NCBI GenBank assembly: GCA_903838055.1
Contig: CAILWV010000013.1
Coordinates: forward strand, 1-64,000
DNA from: an uncultured Bacteroidota bacterium
GTDB lineage: Bacteria; Bacteroidota; Bacteroidia; Flavobacteriales; Flavobacteriaceae
DNA: 64,000 bases
Direction of reading: 5' to 3'
Positions 3,059 through 63,047 of this stretch are shown in pieces. Every line of letters starts with the position of its first letter. Positions within the stretch are counted from its first letter, which is position 1. The notes beneath the pieces were generated by a model. It searched no databases. It was not told the origin of the DNA and saw only the letters and a list, made by a program, of their open reading frames with translations. Both the position numbers and the translations under genes were made by a program.

Positions 3059-6000
3059 ATGGAACCACAAACTCCCTATATTCCTAAAAATAAAGTAAGA
3101 ATCGTTACGGCTGCATCTCTTTTTGATGGTCATGATGCTGCTATTAATATTATGCGTAGAATAATTCAGTCTACCGGTGTTGAAGTTATTCATCTTGGTC
3201 ACGATAGAAGTGTGGAAGAAGTAGTAAATACTGCCATTCAAGAAGATGCTAATGCAATTGCAATGACTTCCTACCAAGGCGGGCACAATGAGTATTTTAA
3301 ATATATGTACGATTTGCTTAAAGAAAAAGGAGCAGGGCACATCAAGATATTTGGTGGTGGTGGTGGTGTAATTCTGCCTACTGAGATTGCAGAACTTCAA
3401 GCATACGGAATAGAAAGAATTTATTCGCCAGACGATGGGCGTGCTATGGGTTTGCAAGGAATGATTAATGATTTAGTTCAACGTTCTGATTATCCTATTG
3501 GTGATGTATTAAAAGAGGAGTTAGAACATATTGAAGATAAAAATCCAACTGCTATAGCGCGATTAATATCGGCAGCTGAAAATTTTCCTGAAATTGCTAA
3601 GTTAGCATTTGATGAAATTCATAAGAAAAATGAAACAAACAAAACACCTGTCCTTGGAATTACTGGTACAGGCGGTGCTGGAAAATCTTCATTGGTTGAT
3701 GAATTGGTGCGTCGTTTTTTAATTGATTTTCCAGAAAAAACTATCGGATTAGTTTCTGTAGATCCATCTAAAAGAAAAACAGGTGGAGCTTTGCTTGGGG
3801 ATAGAATTCGGATGAATGCCATCAATAACCCTAGAGTTTATATGCGTTCGTTAGCTACAAGACAATCTAATTTGGCTTTGTCTAAATATGTAAACGAGGC
3901 TATTGAAGTATTAAAAGCAGCAAAATATGATATTATAATTCTAGAAACTTCTGGAATTGGTCAAAGTGATACGGAAATAATGGACCATTCGGATGTTTCC
4001 TTATATGTAATGACACCCGAATTTGGCGCAGCAACCCAATTGGAAAAAATCGATATGTTGGATTTTGCCGATTTAGTAGCGCTTAACAAATTTGATAAAC
4101 GTGGCGCTTTAGATGCTATCCGAGATGTAAAAAAACAATACCAACGCAATCATAATCTTTGGGATGAAAATGTAGATAGTATGCCGATTTTTGGTACAAT
4201 CGCTTCCCAATTTAATGATCCCGGAATGAATACGCTCTACAAATCTATTATGGATAAAATCGTAGAGAAAACTGGAGCCGATTTAAAATCGACGTTCCAA
4301 ATTACTCGTGAAATGAGCGAGAAAATATTTGTAATTCCGCCGCATAGAACCCGTTATTTATCTGAAATTGCAGAGAATAATAGAAAATACGATGAAACTG
4401 CAATTTCGCAAGTAGAAGTAGCTCAGAAATTATATGGAATTTTCAAAACCATAGAAACTGTTTTTGGTAACAAACCAAATTTAACAAAAGCAGGAATTGA
4501 CCTCAATCTTGTCATTCCGCAAGAATCTCAACAATTTATGAGTTTGCTTGTTGCCGAATTCGACCGTGTAAAAATGAATCTTGACCCCTATAATTGGGAA
4601 GTGATTCTTACATGGGAAGAAAAAGTAAACAAATATAAAAATCCATATTACAGTTTTAAAGTTAGAGATAAGGAAATCAAAATCGCTACACATACTGAGA
4701 GTTTATCACATTCTCAAATTCCGAAAGTATCCTTGCCAAAATACCAAGCTTGGGGAGATATTTTGAAATGGAATTTACAAGAAAATGTTCCAGGTGAATT
4801 TCCTTTTGCTTCCGGATTATATCCATTTAAAAGAGAAGGGGAAGATCCAAGTAGAATGTTTGCTGGAGAAGGCGGTCCTGAACGAACCAACAAACGCTTT
4901 CATTATGTAAGTGCTGGTTTGCCTGCAAAACGACTTTCTACAGCTTTTGATAGTGTAACACTTTATGGAAATGACCCACATGTTCGTCCGGATATTTATG
5001 GAAAAATTGGTAATGCCGGAGTTTCTATTTGTTGTTTAGATGATGCTAAAAAGTTGTATTCTGGTTTCGATTTGACGCATGCAATGACCTCAGTTTCAAT
5101 GACAATTAATGGTCCTGCGCCAATGATACTCGGTTTTTTTATGAATGCTGCAATCGATCAAAATTGTGAAAAGTATATTATAGAAAACAATCTTCAAGCA
5201 GAAGTAGAAGAAAAAATAAACGAAATATATAAGAAAAAAGGTACTGTAAGACCTAAATACCAAGGAGATTTGCCAGAAGGAAACAATGGCTTAGGGTTGC
5301 TTCTTTTGGGAGTTTCGGGAGATCAAGTGCTGCCTTTAAATGTATATAACGATATCAAAGTAAGGACTTTAGCTCAAGTGCGAGGCACGGTTCAAGCAGA
5401 TATTTTGAAAGAAGACCAGGCGCAAAATACATGTATATTTTCTACCGAGTTTGCCTTGCGACTAATGGGTGATGTACAAGAATATTTCATTAAAGAAAAT
5501 GTGCGTAATTTTTATTCGGTTTCTATTTCTGGATATCATATTGCCGAAGCGGGTGCTAATCCTATTTCGCAATTGGCTTTTACCTTAGCAAATGGATTCA
5601 CTTACGTGGAATATTATTTAAGTCGCGGAATGAATATTAATGATTTCGGACCAAACTTATCTTTCTTTTTCTCTAACGGAATAGATCCTGAATATGCAGT
5701 AATTGGTCGTGTAGCTCGTAAAATTTGGGCTAAAGCCATGAAAAATAAATATGGAGCTAACGAAAGAGCACAAATGTTGAAATACCATATTCAAACTTCT
5801 GGTCGTTCTCTTCATGCTCAAGAAATTGATTTTAATGACATCCGTACGACTTTGCAAGCGTTATATGCAATTTATGACAACTGTAATTCATTGCATACCA
5901 ATGCTTATGATGAAGCAATCACAACGCCAACTGAAGAATCAGTTCGTAGAGCGATGGCAATCCAATTAATTATCAATAAAGAATTAGGTTTGGCGAAAAA

Positions 6001-6481
6001 TGAAAATCCAATTCAAGGTTCTTTTATTATAGAAGAATTAACCGATTTAGTAGAGAATGCTGTATTGCTAGAATTTGATCGAATAACAGAGCGAGGTGGT
6101 GTTCTTGGTGCAATGGAAACTATGTACCAACGTTCTAAAATTCAGGAAGAAAGTTTGTATTATGAAACCTTAAAACACACAGGTGAATTCCCAATTATTG
6201 GAGTCAATACTTTCTTAAGTTCTAAAGGTTCTCCAACGGTAATTCCAGCAGAAGTGATTCGCGCTACTGAAGAAGAAAAGCAATATCAAATTGATATGCT
6301 AACCAATTTACAAAAAACTAGCGCAGACAAAGTAGCAGAACATATTGCTATTCTTCAAGATGCAGCTATTAATAATCAAAATATTTTTGAAAAATTAATG
6401 GAAGCCACTAAAGTTTGTTCTTTAGGACAAATAACTAGTGCGTTGTTTGAAGTTGGCGGACAATATAGAAGAAATATGTAG
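3059..6481 (+). CDS. icmF: Fused adenosylcobalamin-dependent acyl-CoA mutase (IcmF type)
   Basis: Likely isobutyryl-CoA/n-butyryl-CoA mutase with its G-protein chaperone in one chain, 1140 aa. Residues about 10-140 form the B12-binding domain (DGHDAA at 23-28). Residues about 195-410 form a MeaB-like GTPase (P-loop GTGGAGKSS at 203-211, NKFD later). The rest is the mutase barrel, with [12 protein letters not shown] near the active site. Substrate-pocket residues are Phe601 (RMFAGEG) and Gln789 (QAQN), where methylmalonyl-CoA mutase has Tyr and Arg; this favours an isobutyryl-type substrate. The protein is about 50 aa longer than the bacterial enzymes I recall because of an insertion before [10 protein letters not shown]. 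It stands alone, followed by a strong terminator. Confidence 0.9.
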
Positions 6482-6504
6482 ATAATTACTATCAAAGATA
6501 TAGA

Positions 6505-6528
6505 GACGCGATTTATCGCGTCTTTTTT
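6505..6528 (+). terminator. Intrinsic terminator of icmF
   Basis: GACGCGAT (6505-6512), a TT loop, ATCGCGTC (6515-6522), then TTTTTT. The 8-bp stem is perfect. Confidence 0.85.
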
Positions 6529-6675
6529 ATTATTTTTTATTTCAATTAAAGCCGATTTTGGTTGGCAATCTAGATTTCATGATCACAATATTTGAAATTC
6601 AAAATCATTTTATATCATTCAAATCTATATCTTTGAAAATCGTATGAATTGTGAAAAAGACAAATTTTATAATAA

Positions 6676-9870: not shown

Positions 9871-10017
9871 AAGTTTCTTTTTTACAAATGTAAGCAATAT
9901 CAATTTCAATGGCAATAACAATTCTAAATAACAAAATGTGCCAAAATAGAAGCTTATAATTTAATTAATTCAAGTTTTGAACAGTATTTTTATTATTTAT
10001 TAACATTACCCCTAAAA

Positions 10018-10082
10018 AAATAGGGTATAAATAAAATTTAATTAAAATATTATTATATTTGCAGTAAATAAATAGGGTATAA
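10018..10082 (+). promoter_or_regulatory. Promoter of glutamine synthetase with repeated AAATAGGGTATAA motif
   Basis: A -7 type box TATATTTG is at 10054-10061. It lies between two exact 13-nt copies of AAATAGGGTATAA (10018-10030 and 10070-10082), and an inverted relative (TACCCCTA) precedes the first copy. No good -33 TTG is present at the expected distance. The arrangement suggests a regulator binding on both sides of the promoter; that is inference. Confidence 0.5.
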
Positions 10083-10100: not shown

Positions 10101-12290
10101 ATGTCAACTTTACGTTTTCAAGCATTAAAAGAAGCATCAGGTAGAAAGCCTGTAAAATTTGAAGAATCTGGTAGAAAATCGGATCTTTTTGGTTCGAATG
10201 TGTTCAATGATAAAGCAATGAAGCAATTTTTGACTTCTGATGCACACAAGGGAGTAAAAGATGCCGTGCAGCACGGAACTAAAATTGATAGAAAATTAGC
10301 GGATTATATCGCTATGGGAATGAAAGAATGGGCTTTAAGCAAAGGTGTTACACACTACACCCACTGGTTTCAGCCTTTAACAGGAACTACTGCAGAAAAA
10401 CACGATGCGTTCTTTGAAACTTCTTATGATGGTTCAGATCCTGTAGAGAAATTTGGTGGTGGTCAATTAGTACAACAAGAGCCAGATGCTTCTTCTTTTC
10501 CAAATGGAGGAATTAGAAATACTTTTGAAGCTCGTGGTTATACTGCTTGGGATCCAACTTCTCCTGCGTTTATTTTTGGAACTACTTTGTGTATTCCAAC
10601 CGTGTTTATCTCTTATACGGGTGAAGCATTAGATTATAAAACACCTCTTTTACGTGCTTTGAATGCAGTGGATGAAGCTGCAACTGATGTTTGTAAATAT
10701 TTTGATAAAAATGTTAAGAAAGTTACCGCAACTTTAGGTTGGGAACAAGAATATTTTTTAGTAGATAGTTCGTTAGCTAATTCTCGCCCAGATATTGTAA
10801 TGACGGGTAGAACTTTGTTAGGGCACACCTCTGCTAAAGGGCAACAATTAGACGATCATTATTTTGGTTCTATTCCTTCTCGTGCCTTAAATTACATGAG
10901 AGAATTGGAGGAAGAATGTATGTTATTAGGAATACCTGTTAAAACTCGTCACAATGAAGTTGCGCCAAACCAATTTGAGTTAGCCCCAATTTTTGAAGAG
11001 ACAAATTTAGCTGTAGATCACAATTCTCTATTGATGGATGTAATGTCTAAAGTTGGAGAACGTCATGACTTTAAAGTGCTTTTCCATGAAAAACCATTTA
11101 AAGGTGTTAATGGATCTGGAAAACATAATAACTGGTCTTTAGCAACAGATACTGGTGTAAATTTACTTTCTCCAGGTAAAACTCCAATGAGTAACTTACA
11201 GTTTTTGTCTTTCTTTATTAATACCATTAAGGCGGTTAACGAATATGAAGAATTACTTCGTGCGGCTATTGCAACCGCTAGTAATGACCATAGATTAGGA
11301 GCTAATGAAGCGCCACCTGCAATTATATCTGTATTTATAGGAGAACAATTAACTAAAGTATTAGCAGAATTAGAAGGGGTTTCTAATGGGAAATTATCTC
11401 CAGAAGAAAAAACAGATTTAAAATTGAATGTTGTTGGTAAAATTCCAGACGTAATGTTGGATAATACTGATAGAAATAGAACATCACCATTTGCCTTCAC
11501 CGGAAATAAATTCGAATTTAGAGCCGTTGGATCTTCTGCAAACTGTGCAAATGCTATGACAACTTTAAATTCTATTGTTGCAAAACAATTGAAAGAATTT
11601 AAAAAAGAAGTAGATGCATTAATTGAAACAAAAGATTTAAAGAAAGACGAAGCTATCTTTAATGTGTTGAGAGAATATATTAAAGGGACTAAAAAAATAC
11701 TTTTTGAAGGTGACGGTTATAGCGATGCTTGGGAAAAAGAAGCGAAAAAACGTGGATTAAGTAACCATAAAACTACGCCATCAGCATTGAAAGCTAAGGT
11801 TTCTCAAAAAGCTTTAGACTTGTTCAAAGATTTAAACGTAATGAACCACATTGAGGTGGAAGCTCGTTATGAAATTGAATTGGAAGAGTACACTAAAAAA
11901 ATCCAAATTGAAGGAAGAGTATTAGGTGATATTGCTCGTAATCATGTTATTCCGACTGCTATTCGTTACCAAAATACATTAATTGAAAATGTTCGTGGTT
12001 TGAAAGAAATCTTTGGAAAAGATTTTGAAAAAATTGCTAAAGAGCAAATTGTATTAATTAAAGAAATATCAGAACATATTGAAGGTATTAATATACAAGT
12101 AGACGCAATGACGGAGGCTCGCAAGAAAGCAAATGCTTTAACTGACGCGCAAAAAATGGCTGAATCCTACTGTGATAAAGTAAAACCATACTTTGAAGTG
12201 ATTAGAGCACACTGCGATAAGTTGGAGTTATTGGTAGATAATGAAACTTGGACTTTGACTAAATACAGAGAGTTGTTATTTACTAGATAG
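10101..12290 (+). CDS. glnN: Glutamine synthetase type III
   Basis: Assimilates ammonium by ATP-dependent amidation of glutamate. At 729 aa it is the long GSIII class common in Bacteroidota, not the GSI class of about 470 aa. Visible signatures: HYTHWFQPLTG near residue 90, the ATP/metal region ATLGWEQEYFLVD, RHNEVAPNQFELAPIFEE, the catalytic loop KGVNGSGKHNNWSL, and GNKFEFRAVGSSAN. The C-terminal helical extension (from about residue 590) is also typical of GSIII. It is monocistronic, with a repeat-flanked promoter and its own terminator, fitting nitrogen-dependent control. Confidence 0.93.
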   Translation: MSTLRFQALKEASGRKPVKFEESGRKSDLFGSNVFNDKAMKQFLTSDAHKGVKDAVQHGTKIDRKLADYIAMGMKEWALSKGVTHYTHWFQPLTGTTAEKHDAFFETSYDGSDPVEKFGGGQLVQQEPDASSFPNGGIRNTFEARGYTAWDPTSPAFIFGTTLCIPTVFISYTGEALDYKTPLLRALNAVDEAATDVCKYFDKNVKKVTATLGWEQEYFLVDSSLANSRPDIVMTGRTLLGHTSAKGQQLDDHYFGSIPSRALNYMRELEEECMLLGIPVKTRHNEVAPNQFELAPIFEETNLAVDHNSLLMDVMSKVGERHDFKVLFHEKPFKGVNGSGKHNNWSLATDTGVNLLSPGKTPMSNLQFLSFFINTIKAVNEYEELLRAAIATASNDHRLGANEAPPAIISVFIGEQLTKVLAELEGVSNGKLSPEEKTDLKLNVVGKIPDVMLDNTDRNRTSPFAFTGNKFEFRAVGSSANCANAMTTLNSIVAKQLKEFKKEVDALIETKDLKKDEAIFNVLREYIKGTKKILFEGDGYSDAWEKEAKKRGLSNHKTTPSALKAKVSQKALDLFKDLNVMNHIEVEARYEIELEEYTKKIQIEGRVLGDIARNHVIPTAIRYQNTLIENVRGLKEIFGKDFEKIAKEQIVLIKEISEHIEGINIQVDAMTEARKKANALTDAQKMAESYCDKVKPYFEVIRAHCDKLELLVDNETWTLTKYRELLFTR

Positions 12291-12407: not shown

Positions 12408-13283
12408 ATGAATATGAGTAAATTTATTTTTTTTGTGCTTCTTTTTATTTCCTTTCAATATGCAAAGGCTCAAGAACAGTTTTCTGTTTTTTTTGAAAGT
12501 AATAAATCAAATTTAACAAAAACTGAAAATCTAAAACTTCAAAACTGGATTGAATCCAATAAAGAAGTTAAAATTATTGCTATTCATGGGTTTACCGATG
12601 AAGATGGAAGTTCAAGTTTTAATGATACTCTTGCAAAAAAAAGAGTTGATTTTATAAATAGTAGGATAAAAGGTAAAATCAATATCAGAGAAGATTTTAA
12701 AACTATTAGTTTTGGAGAAAACTTTAAGCAATTAAATGATAAATCTAAAAATAGAAAAGCAATTATTTTTTATTTGCTTCCGAAGGATTTTTCTCGCGAA
12801 AATGAAATTTTAGGAATAACTAAGCCTGAAACAAAGCCAATTGTAGAAGTTATTCCAGAATTGGTTCCTATTGAAGAAGATGTAATGAACTTTCCTGAAG
12901 GTGCTACTCTTGAAGACAAGATTAAGCTATCTCAAAAAGGAACACTTATTCGGTTGAATGAAATTAATTTTTATGTCAATACTTTTGCGATAATGCCAAC
13001 ATCAAAGAAATCTATTGATGAATTGATTACTGTTTTGAAATTATTTCCCGATTTAAGAATCGAAATTCAAGGTCATATTTGTTGTGTAAATAAAGACTCC
13101 CGAAATTTATCTGCAGATAGAGCTAAACAAGTAAAGCGAATTTTAGTTTCGGAAGGGATTTCCGATCAAAGAATCCAAACAAAAGGTTTTGGAGTTTCAA
13201 AACCTAAATTTGCAATTCCTGAAAAAAGTGAGTTCGAGGCCTCTAGAAACCGACGCGTAGAAATTATGATATTAGATAAATAA
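12408..13283 (+). CDS. Secreted protein with two OmpA-like domains (first paralogue)
   Basis: A 291-aa exported protein (signal peptide ending near YAKAQ). Two OmpA-C-like domains: about 25-125 (HGFTDEDGSSSFNDTLAKKR) and about 190-291 (EIQGHICCVNKDSRNLSADRAKQV, ending NRRVEIMILDK). The second domain has GHICC where typical members have GHTD, so the Asp that contacts diaminopimelate in peptidoglycan-binding OmpA domains is not in its usual place. Start could be the first Met or Met3. Its downstream paralogue begins 2 nt after its stop. Role in the envelope is inferred. Confidence 0.8.
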   Translation: MNMSKFIFFVLLFISFQYAKAQEQFSVFFESNKSNLTKTENLKLQNWIESNKEVKIIAIHGFTDEDGSSSFNDTLAKKRVDFINSRIKGKINIREDFKTISFGENFKQLNDKSKNRKAIIFYLLPKDFSRENEILGITKPETKPIVEVIPELVPIEEDVMNFPEGATLEDKIKLSQKGTLIRLNEINFYVNTFAIMPTSKKSIDELITVLKLFPDLRIEIQGHICCVNKDSRNLSADRAKQVKRILVSEGISDQRIQTKGFGVSKPKFAIPEKSEFEASRNRRVEIMILDK

Positions 13284-13285
13284 TA

Positions 13286-14065
13286 ATGAAAAAATACAGT
13301 TTACTTTTTCTAATGGTTCCTATGTTTTTCTATTCTCAAGAAAAACTAAATGTTTATTTTGATTTTGATAAATACGATTTAAATGAGCAAGGAGTTAAAA
13401 AAATAAATTCATGGATTGCCGAAGGGAAAAATTATGAAGTAACTAAACTTTATGGTTTTTGCGATTGGAAAGGATCAAACGAATACAATGATACTTTGGC
13501 AATGAAACGAGTGTATACTGTTTATGAATTTTTGAAACAAAGTAAAATTAATGTCAAAAAAGAAATCGAAATTCGTGGTTTCGGAGAAGACTTTGAGCAA
13601 TCTGAAGACCAAGGAGAAAACCGAAGAGTAACAATAATTTTTCAAGAAAAGAAAGAAATTCCAGTGGTAGTAACCTCCGAACAAAAACTAAAAGATAAGT
13701 TTAAAGGTTCAAAAATTGGAGATTTAATTCGAATGCCAAACTTATACTTTTTCAATAATTCAGCAAAAGTTGTCCCTAAATCCCAGCCGGTATTGTACGA
13801 TTTACTGTGTTTAATGAACGATAATCCTAAATTAAAAATTGAAATTCAAGGACATATTTGTTGTAAACTGCCAAGTGATTATGATGCTGTTTCTTCCGCT
13901 AGAGCGCGTGCTATTTATAATTTTTTGGTAATAAATAAAATAGATAGAAAACGTTTAGCATTTAAAGGTTACGGAGTGTCGCGTCCTATTCATCCAATAC
14001 CAGAAAAAAATTCGGAAGAAGAAGATGAAAACAGAAGAGTTGAAATTTTGATAATTGATAATTAA
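13286..14065 (+). CDS. Secreted protein with two OmpA-like domains (second paralogue)
   Basis: A 259-aa paralogue of the preceding gene with the same layout: signal peptide (MKKYSLLFLMVPMFFYS), first OmpA-like domain with FDFDKYDLNEQGVKKI and GFCDWKGSNEYNDTLAMKR, and a second domain with EIQGHICCKLPSDYDAVSSARA and NRRVEILIIDN. The unusual GHICC replacement is shared, so it predates the duplication and is probably functional. A 2-nt gap indicates one transcript. Confidence 0.8.
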   Translation: MKKYSLLFLMVPMFFYSQEKLNVYFDFDKYDLNEQGVKKINSWIAEGKNYEVTKLYGFCDWKGSNEYNDTLAMKRVYTVYEFLKQSKINVKKEIEIRGFGEDFEQSEDQGENRRVTIIFQEKKEIPVVVTSEQKLKDKFKGSKIGDLIRMPNLYFFNNSAKVVPKSQPVLYDLLCLMNDNPKLKIEIQGHICCKLPSDYDAVSSARARAIYNFLVINKIDRKRLAFKGYGVSRPIHPIPEKNSEEEDENRRVEILIIDN

Positions 14066-59822: not shown

Positions 59823-60451
59823 TGGAAGTAAAAGTTTTAGATATCAAAGGAAAAGATACTGGAAGAAAAGTACAACTTTCTGATTCAGTATTCGGTATAG
59901 AGCCAAATAAACACGCAGTATATCTTGATGTTAAGCAATACTTAGCTAATCAAAGACAAGGGACTCATAAAGCTAAAGAAAGAGCTGAAGTTGCTGGAAG
60001 TACTCGTAAGATTAAAAAGCAAAAAGGTACAGGTACTGCCCGTGCTGGTAGTGCTAAGAACCCTTTATTCAAAGGTGGGGGTACAGTTTTTGGTCCAAGA
60101 CCAAGAAGTTACTCTTTTAAATTGAATAAAAGTTTAAAGAGATTAGCAAGAAGATCTGCATTCTCTTTAAAAGCAAAAGAATCTAATTTAATAGTAGTTG
60201 AAGATTTTACTTTTGATACTCCAAACACAAAAAACTTTTTATCAGTTTTAAGTGCTTTAGGGTTAGAAAACAAAAAATCTTTATTTGTGTTGGGTGATTC
60301 AAATAAAAATGTATATTTGTCGTCACGCAATTTAAAAGCTTCTAATGTAGTAACTAACTCAGAATTAAGCACTTACGCAATTTTACATGCGAATAATTTA
60401 GTGTTATTAGAGGGTTCTTTAGAAGGAATTGAAGATAATTTAAGTAAATAA
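59822..60451 (+). CDS. rplD: Ribosomal protein L4
   Basis: A 209-aa protein starting [21 protein letters not shown], the start I prefer because it overlaps the rplC stop; the ORF track begins 11 codons earlier inside rplC. RQGTHKAKERAEVAGSTRKIKKQKGTGTARAGS is the conserved tunnel loop. In E. coli L4 also regulates this operon. Confidence 0.97.
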   Translation: MEVKVLDIKGKDTGRKVQLSDSVFGIEPNKHAVYLDVKQYLANQRQGTHKAKERAEVAGSTRKIKKQKGTGTARAGSAKNPLFKGGGTVFGPRPRSYSFKLNKSLKRLARRSAFSLKAKESNLIVVEDFTFDTPNTKNFLSVLSALGLENKKSLFVLGDSNKNVYLSSRNLKASNVVTNSELSTYAILHANNLVLLEGSLEGIEDNLSK

Positions 60452-60457
60452 CAAGCC

Positions 60458-60748
60458 ATGAGTATACTAGTTAAGCCTATTATTACAGAAAAAATCACCA
60501 AAGAAGGTGAACTTTTCAATCGTTTTGGTTTCGTTGTAGATAAAAAAGCAAACAAAGTACAAATTAAGAAAGCTGTAGAAGCTACTTACGGAGTATCTGT
60601 TGTAAATGTAAATACAATGAATGTTAGACCAGATAGAACTACTAAATACACTAAAAGTGGATTGATAAGTGGAAAGTCAAATGCTTACAAAAAAGCAATT
60701 GTTCAAGTACAAGAAGGAGAAACAATAGATTTTTACAACAATATCTAA
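60458..60748 (+). CDS. rplW: Ribosomal protein L23
   Basis: A 96-aa protein at the polypeptide exit site: ILVKPIITEKITKEGE, YGVSVVNVNTMNVRPDRTTKYT. 6 nt after rplD. Confidence 0.96.
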   Translation: MSILVKPIITEKITKEGELFNRFGFVVDKKANKVQIKKAVEATYGVSVVNVNTMNVRPDRTTKYTKSGLISGKSNAYKKAIVQVQEGETIDFYNNI

Positions 60749-60757
60749 TAAACAAAG

Positions 60758-61582
60758 ATGTCAGTAAGAAAATTAAAACCTATTACCCCGGGTCAGCGAT
60801 TTAGAGTTGTTAATGGTTTTGACGCCATTACAACTGATAAGCCGGAGCGTTCATTGATCGCACCGATAAAAAACTCAGGAGGTAGAAATAGTCAAGGAAA
60901 AATGACCATGCGTTACACAGGCGGTGGTCACAAACAAAGATATCGTATCATTGATTTTAAAAGAACTAAAGTTGGAATTCCAGCTACAGTAAAATCAATT
61001 GAGTATGATCCAAACAGAACTGCTTTTATCGCATTATTATGGTATGCCGACGGAGAGAAAACATATATTGTTGCTCAAAACGGTTTACAAGTAGGACAAA
61101 CTGTAATGTCAGGCGAAGTTGCTACTCCAGAAATAGGAAATACTTTACCGTTAAGTAAAATTCCTTTAGGAACTGTAATTTCATGTATTGAATTACGTCC
61201 AGGTCAAGGAGCTACTATCGCAAGAAGTGCAGGTACTTTTGCTCAATTAATGGCAAGAGATGGTAAATATGCAACAATTAAAATGCCGTCTGGTGAAACA
61301 AGATTAATCTTGTTAACTTGTTCTGCAACAATTGGAGCTGTATCTAATTCTGATCATCAATTAATTGTATCTGGTAAAGCAGGTAGAACAAGATGGTTAG
61401 GAAGAAGACCAAGAACTAGACCAGTAGCTATGAATCCTGTCGATCACCCAATGGGTGGTGGTGAAGGTCGTTCATCTGGAGGTCACCCACGTTCTAGAAA
61501 AGGTCTTCCTGCTAAAGGTTATAGAACTCGTTCTAAAGTTAACCCGAGTAATAAGTATATTGTTGAACGCAGAAAGAAATAA
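60758..61582 (+). CDS. rplB: Ribosomal protein L2
   Basis: A 274-aa protein: [29 protein letters not shown], and the C-terminal [24 protein letters not shown] with the conserved His of the peptidyl-transferase region. Confidence 0.97.
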
Positions 61583-61592
61583 TTAGATAGAT

Positions 61593-61871
61593 ATGGCACG
61601 TTCATTAAAAAAAGGACCTTTTGTACACTACAAATTAGATAAGAAAGTTCAAGAAAATATTGAAAAAGGAAACAAAGGTGTTGTTAAGACTTGGTCTAGA
61701 GCATCTATGATAACTCCTGATTTCGTAGGACAAACTATCGCAGTACACAATGGTCGTCAATTTGTTCCGGTTTATGTAACTGAGAACATGGTAGGACACA
61801 AATTAGGAGAGTTTTCACCAACTAGATCTTTTAGAGGTCACGCTGGAGCAAAAAATAAAGGTAAAAAATAA
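61593..61871 (+). CDS. rpsS: Ribosomal protein S19
   Basis: A 92-aa protein: [54 protein letters not shown]. Confidence 0.97.
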
Positions 61872-61875
61872 GAAG

Positions 61876-62286
61876 ATGGGAGTTCGTAAAAGAGAAACAG
61901 CAGACGCAAGAAAAGAGGCTAATAAGTCTATAGCTTTTGCAAAATTGAATAACTGCCCTACTTCACCTAGAAAAATGCGCTTAGTAGCAGACTTGGTAAG
62001 AGGTCAGAAAGTGGAAAGAGCTTTAAATATATTAAGATTTAGCTCCAAAGAAGCTTCAAGAAAATTAGAGAAATTAGTATTATCTGCAATCAACAATTGG
62101 GAGCAGAAAAATGCAGATGGAAATGTTTCTGAAGCAGGCTTATTTGTAAAAGAAATCCGTGTTGATGGTGGAATGATGTTGAAAAGACTTCGTCCAGCTC
62201 CACAAGGAAGAGCACACAGAATTAGAAAGCGTTCTAATCACGTTACAATCGTATTAGGACAAGTAGATAACACACAAAGCAATTAA
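61876..62286 (+). CDS. rplV: Ribosomal protein L22
   Basis: A 136-aa protein: [30 protein letters not shown] and the tunnel-lining hairpin with [32 protein letters not shown]. Confidence 0.97.
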
Positions 62287-62291
62287 TTAAG

Positions 62292-63047
62292 ATGGGACAA
62301 AAGACAAATCCAATAGGAAACAGACTTGGTATCATCAGAGGATGGGACTCTAACTGGTATGGTGGAAATGATTACGGTGATAAAATCGCTGAAGATTATA
62401 AAATCAGAAAGTATATCCATGCTCGTTTATCAAAAGCTAGTGTATCAAAAGTAATTATCGAGAGAACTCTAAAACTTGTAACCGTTACTATCACTACTGC
62501 AAGACCTGGTATTATTATCGGGAAAGGTGGTCAAGAGGTAGACAAGTTAAAAGAAGAACTTAAGAAAGTTACCGACAAAGAAGTTCAAATCAATATCTTT
62601 GAAATTAAAAGACCTGAGTTAGATGCTTATTTAGTTGCAACAAGTATTGCTCGTCAAATTGAAAGTCGTATTTCTTACAGAAGAGCTATTAAAATGGCTA
62701 TCGCTGCATCCATGAGAATGAATGCTGAAGGAATTAAAGTTTTAATTTCTGGTCGTTTGAACGGAGCTGAAATGGCGCGTTCAGAAGGTTTTAAAGAAGG
62801 TAGAATTCCATTGTCAACTTTCAGAGCTGATATTGATTATGCTTTGGCAGAAGCGCATACTACTTATGGTAGAATGGGTATCAAAGTGTGGATCATGAAA
62901 GGTGAAGTGTACGGAAAACGTGATTTATCTCCACTAGTTGGAATGGATAAAAAACAAGCTTCTGGCGGTAAAGGTGGAGATTCTCCTAGAGGAGACAGAA
63001 AACCTTTTAACAAAGGAGGAAAACCAGATGCACGTAAAAGAAAGTAA
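62292..63047 (+). CDS. rpsC: Ribosomal protein S3
   Basis: A 251-aa protein: [27 protein letters not shown]-type motif [16 protein letters not shown], and a Lys/Gly-rich C-terminal tail ([20 protein letters not shown]). Confidence 0.97.

Follow-up and report, generated by a model that had tools for sequence, protein, structure and literature searches.

Background

The closest described counterparts of the element reported here are the GlnR/TnrA regulons of Bacilli, in which MerR-family proteins control the same kinds of genes, often from two sites and as activator or repressor (PMC9948412; PMC4475385). The flavobacterial sites described below resemble these regulons in their targets (glnA, amtB-glnK, and gltAB), in the use of dyads, often two per promoter, and in an activator-type site near −50. 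They differ in that the Bacilli motif, TGTNAN7TNACA, is absent from them and unrelated to ACCCCTA-A/T-TAGGGGT, in a strict 52–54 bp pairing that is specific to the flavobacterial operators, and in phylum and promoter type, and no GlnR/TnrA gene was found among the flavobacterial candidates.

Three other systems invite comparison. First, the NtcA regulon of cyanobacteria, controlled by a CRP-family protein, likewise serves nitrogen metabolism, counts glnN (GSIII) and glnA among its genes, and has operators upstream of the promoter, but the flavobacterial dyad carries neither GTAN8TAC nor CRP-like TGTGA half-sites. Second, the NtrC/sigma-54 system of Proteobacteria shares physiological role and targets, whereas the promoters studied here lack −24/−12 elements and have the housekeeping TAnnTTTG box at a fixed distance; the sigma-54 genes reported for F. 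psychrophilum relate to protein quality control, envelope stress, and gliding motility (PMC9723704). Third, Lrp/AsnC multi-site operators (e.g., E. coli gltBDF) show phased paired sites and nitrogen or amino-acid targets, but with different spacing and half-site sequence, and here a protein of that family is a candidate regulator. For Bacteroidota themselves, we found neither a description of an ACCCCTA…TAGGGGT nitrogen motif nor a named regulator of nitrogen assimilation in the open-access literature, and glutamine synthetase, amtB, and glnK all go unmentioned in a regulatory atlas of Bacteroides (PMC12596196).

Here, we examined the promoter of glnN in a 64,000-nucleotide window (positions 1 to 64,000 of contig CAILWV010000013.1) and followed its repeats through relatives, the family, and the phylum. 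As far as sequence comparison can tell, the window repeat belongs to a DNA switch that is shared across the family and precedes genes for ammonium uptake and assimilation.

Results and discussion

A dyad and a half-site flank the glnN −7 box

The window belongs to a Flavobacterium close to F. dankookense, with whose glnN its own is 96% identical. The gene (10101–12290, forward strand, as are the promoter features below) encodes a 729-aa type III glutamine synthetase (Pfam GSIII_N, 1.4e-76), and the gene upstream of its promoter region is divergent and encodes a TerC/Alx-family protein. Further downstream, two neighboring, mutually similar OmpA-C-like proteins are encoded between glnN and purM (12408–14065).

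The original prediction had described two exact 13-nt copies on either side of a promoter box, preceded by an inverted copy, and each of these elements is in place: AAATAGGGTATAA at 10018–10030 and, 52 bp further on, at 10070–10082, TATATTTG between them at 10054–10061, and inverted TACCCCTA at 10007–10014. The copies are thus real, but what repeats is a dyad with a further site at +52, not a pair of direct 13-mers. Inverted TACCCCTA and the upstream 13-mer together make up the dyad ACCCCTAAAAAAATAGGGTA (operator A, 10008–10027), with a left arm ACCCCTA (10008–10014 as scored for the dyad), a right arm TAGGGTA (10021–10027), and six A residues between them. The downstream 13-mer contains the TAGGGTA right arm of a putative operator B (10073–10079), which also lies 52 bp from the right arm of operator A and is present as one arm only; the position of its left arm overlaps the −7 box, and that arm was apparently lost because the box occupies its place. 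Besides the two copies at this promoter, the 2.96-Mb genome contains one further exact copy of the 13-mer, inside an ORF, for a total of three.

Flavobacterial −7 boxes follow TAnnTTTG and span −12 to −5 (PMC9723704), so that transcription is predicted to start at 10066, five bases past TATATTTG, with the center of operator A at about −48.5 (−49 below) and the second site at about +4. Between the dyad and the −7 box, the −33 TTG is absent.

The dyad is conserved before glnN

The dyad recurs in glnN upstream regions of relatives (79 relatives examined). When scored against ACCCCTA-N5-7-TAGGGGT, 76/106 glnN upstream regions reached at least 11/14 vs 1.2% of mononucleotide shuffles, which preserve base composition only, the 106 regions including a F. 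johnsoniae-type group whose site is that of the divergent glnA promoter, ~370 bp off. In this group (five loci), no dyad was found directly before glnN, and a weaker A/B pair is retained before the divergent glnA; control of glnN has therefore changed within the genus.

The distance from the end of the dyad to the start of the −7 box is 26–30 bp for most Flavobacterium dyads (~30 glnN promoters), 17–19 bp in Gillisia, Nonlabens, and two Tenacibaculum, 26 bp in a third Tenacibaculum, and 39 bp in one Bizionia, so that between clades (17–19, 26–30, 39) it steps by about one helical turn. Of 44 distinct glnN promoters with the window layout, 25 carry the downstream GGG repeat, 52–53 bp from the GGG of the dyad.

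Targets within the genome, the family, and the phylum

Within the window's own genome (2.96 Mb), the best dyad, with one mismatch, precedes amtB, and four dyads have two mismatches, among which glnN is the sole non-coding one while the other three lie within ORFs; glnN and amtB are hence the top two non-coding sites. The amtB promoter also has a right-arm repeat, ATGGGGT, 53 bp further on. Across Flavobacterium, 40/66 amtB upstream regions scored at least 11/14 vs 0.5% of mononucleotide shuffles, with dyads mostly ~118 or ~67 bp ahead of the start codon. At the amtB locus of the window's genome (contig C67, ~60400–62900; 4101–6602 of locus L157), amtB is followed by a gene for a BBP2 (OmpL-like) outer-membrane porin, and in other genera BBP2-family porins stand behind the same dyad, either divergent from gltB or alone. 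This placement suggests that the BBP2 protein may be a porin for nitrogen compounds. Another dyad-like sequence of this genome, CCCTATTTTTCATAGGG (C3:53774; ~3975–3991 of locus L156), is flanked by alaS and an M23 peptidase-MerR operon and looks less like an operator than like a piece of some repeated palindromic element.

At the family level, the perfect dyad was found at 26 sites in 24 of 151 Flavobacteriaceae genomes (each genus represented once, Flavobacterium twice) vs 2 sites for the reversed pattern. Of 24 sites inspected, 20 precede nitrogen-assimilation genes, a porin, or alanine dehydrogenase: glnN or glnA/glnN (7), glnK (8), amtB (1), gltB divergent from a porin (2), and alanine dehydrogenase (2), although many of these loci are related and the counts are not independent events. 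A looser pattern gave ~55 sites in 46/151 genomes vs 3 control sites, with the same target genes at 25/30 inspected loci. Pfam assignments of the target genes comprised P-II, Ammonium_transp, BBP2 porin, AlaDh_PNT_N, GATase_2 (the N-terminus of gltB), and glutamine synthetase. Operators are thus concentrated before glnA/glnN, glnK, amtB, and gltB, as in a nitrogen-assimilation regulon. Alanine dehydrogenase carries a paired operator in several genera (five loci).

The original prediction had proposed to look for the motif before glnN, amtB, and gltBD of related genomes. It was found before glnN and amtB, and before gltB in other genera (four loci); within Flavobacterium, no strong dyad was found upstream of gltB, 15/16 usable regions having no site and one a weak candidate. 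Far from being missing before glnN in relatives or equally frequent elsewhere, either of which was to count against a regulatory role, the motif is conserved there and not equally frequent elsewhere, and it also precedes amtB, glnK, glnA, gltB, and the alanine dehydrogenase gene ald.

Beyond the family, a sample of 297 genomes across the phylum showed the perfect dyad to be nearly limited to Flavobacteriaceae, with exceptions in three scattered genomes only, two with a single site and one with four. The four perfect dyads of the latter, which comes from a different class of the phylum, lie within 17 kb of one contig (G403:C105) and perhaps form a repeat family of their own, with no relation to the operator.

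Paired sites five helical turns apart in two layouts

In ~200 nitrogen-gene upstream regions, secondary dyads (at least 10/14) lie between −54 and −51 and between +51 and +56 relative to the best dyad, with 136 at 51–56 bp (mode 52–54), a tally that can count one site twice at neighboring centers, and almost none elsewhere; the exception is three at −106, which is twice 53. A partner scoring at least 9 was found at 51–55 bp in 40/60 family loci vs 0–7 in 17 other offset windows of equal width, some rows of this count labelled amtB being mis-anchored glnK-amtB operons. At one glnK promoter (L345), a distance of 52.5 bp separates two near-perfect dyads. A pairing of 52–54 bp corresponds to five helical turns, which would put both sites on the same face of the helix. 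The concentration of dyads at nitrogen genes genome-wide, together with pairing at 51–56 bp, shows that the motif is functional DNA, and the target genes and this pairing across the family support the nitrogen link of the original prediction.

The pairs occur in two layouts relative to the −7 box. In the first (glnK, glnA, most amtB, and the porin), the center of the box lies +80 to +83 from the upstream dyad, which places the operators near −91/−38, and a conserved ATAAAAAT lies about halfway along the spacer. In the second (Flavobacterium glnN, including that of the window, and one amtB group), the center of the box lies +39 to +42 from the dyad, which places the operators near −49/+4.

A proposed nitrogen-responsive factor and the direction of its control

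The best overall explanation, which we regard as highly probable, is that these operator pairs serve one Flavobacteriaceae transcription factor that responds to nitrogen. We infer that a single factor would bind cooperatively and respond to a nitrogen signal. It would recognize the dyad ACCC(C/T)TA-A/T5-7-TA(G/A)GGGT, and, as an oligomeric protein, would jointly occupy either a pair of dyads or one dyad plus a half-site, 52–54 bp apart. Under nitrogen scarcity, it would most likely activate from the promoter-nearest site. In the first layout, the nearer site (−38) would take the place of the −33 element; in the second, the strong dyad at −49 would act from one turn further upstream. At glnN, the +4 site would dampen expression, the half-site over the start serving as a brake at high occupancy. 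An operator over the −33 region, as in the first layout, is typical of activator-dependent promoters that lack this element.

The main alternative is that control runs in the reverse direction, with a GlnR-like repressor on the same operators shutting the genes when nitrogen is plentiful and the −38/+4 sites blocking polymerase, a reading to which we give a tangible but clearly lesser chance. Both the +4 site and the site covering the −33 region are repressor-type positions, and GlnR of Bacillus and Paenibacillus represses glnRA and amtB-glnK, several of them from two sites (PMC9948412). On the other hand, the promoters lack the −33 TTG, as activator-dependent promoters do, and in most Flavobacterium glnN promoters the strong full dyad is at −49, off the usual repressor position, while the +4 site is only half a site. 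The original prediction had read the missing TTG as a sign of activator dependence; the absence does fit an activator, but the +4 site could equally serve repression. Knowing in which direction alanine dehydrogenase is regulated would help to distinguish activator from repressor.

Candidate regulators

Gene clustering around the glnN, glnK, and amtB loci revealed no recurrent factor gene except a BlaI-like one in a few loci, which we rejected as the regulator, one of these loci (L110) having no dyad. A search for autoregulation at AsnC, MerR, and CRP loci found no convincing paired dyads. One AsnC/Lrp orthologue and one MerR protein are treated below as candidates and leads only.

An Lrp/AsnC-family factor, perhaps a conserved 159-aa AsnC orthologue, is an unlikely but reasonable candidate. 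Its single orthologous group has one member in each of the seven dyad-bearing Flavobacteriaceae tested; within Flavobacterium the branches are very short, and the best PDB relative is E. coli AsnC. Proteins of the Lrp family form oligomers, bind to phased sites, and frequently regulate ald, gltBD, or glnA. However, the orthologue is also present in G478, from another family of the order, in the few sampled genomes of which the perfect dyad is absent; its own promoter has no dyad in most loci; and, of the many factor families, the comparison covered CRP, MerR, and AsnC/Lrp.

We consider it improbable that the factor is a 110-aa MerR protein acting as a functional analogue of TnrA/GlnR. The protein is present in 9/9 genomes tested, the 19–20 bp ACCC…GGGT dyad has the form of MerR-family dyads, and −49 is about where TnrA activation sites lie. 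GlnR and TnrA are among its weak PDB matches, but they match no better than other MerR proteins do, and it also occurs in genomes of a family where the dyad was not found, with neither linkage nor autoregulation.

Poorer still are the prospects of an NtcA/CRP-family activator with class II/III tandem geometry, which we judge very improbable. With its CCCTA-N6-TAGGG core, the dyad shares the 5-6-5 spacing of CRP sites, and the tandem arrangement, ~52 bp apart with one site near −40, is reminiscent of class III CRP promoters. The dyad spacing, however, shifts by a base or two, and the 2.0-Mb genome G039 (99% complete) has a 13/14 dyad before glnN yet, in a profile search, no HTH_Crp_2 protein above the cut-off; at that cut-off, a CRP/FNR-family regulator does not accompany the operator in every genome, and a CRP/NtcA-type factor is disfavored.

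A chance repeat, a terminator, or an RNA element with no regulatory role has a negligible probability, for although the dyad could fold into a short hairpin and AT-rich promoters yield low-complexity matches, conservation, regulon content, and 52–54 bp pairing stand against it, the element is not a terminator of either gene because it lies between divergent genes, whose intergenic region therefore needs none, and upstream of the −7 box, and an Rfam search found no match.

The picture may extend further: we see about even chances that Flavobacteriaceae have a global nitrogen regulator of their own, outside the known nitrogen-regulator families, which functions solely in a higher-order complex spanning two dyads at a distance of exactly five helical turns, and whose effect, activation or dampening, is set by whether the pair sits at −91/−38 or at −49/+4.

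Conclusions

Flavobacteriaceae are abundant in soil, freshwater, and marine habitats, and the transcriptional control of nitrogen assimilation in Bacteroidota is poorly known. A family-wide operator with defined targets and a rigid two-site geometry makes this question directly testable, and the nitrogen response predicted from it would extend beyond ammonium uptake and assimilation to BBP2 outer-membrane porins and alanine dehydrogenase.
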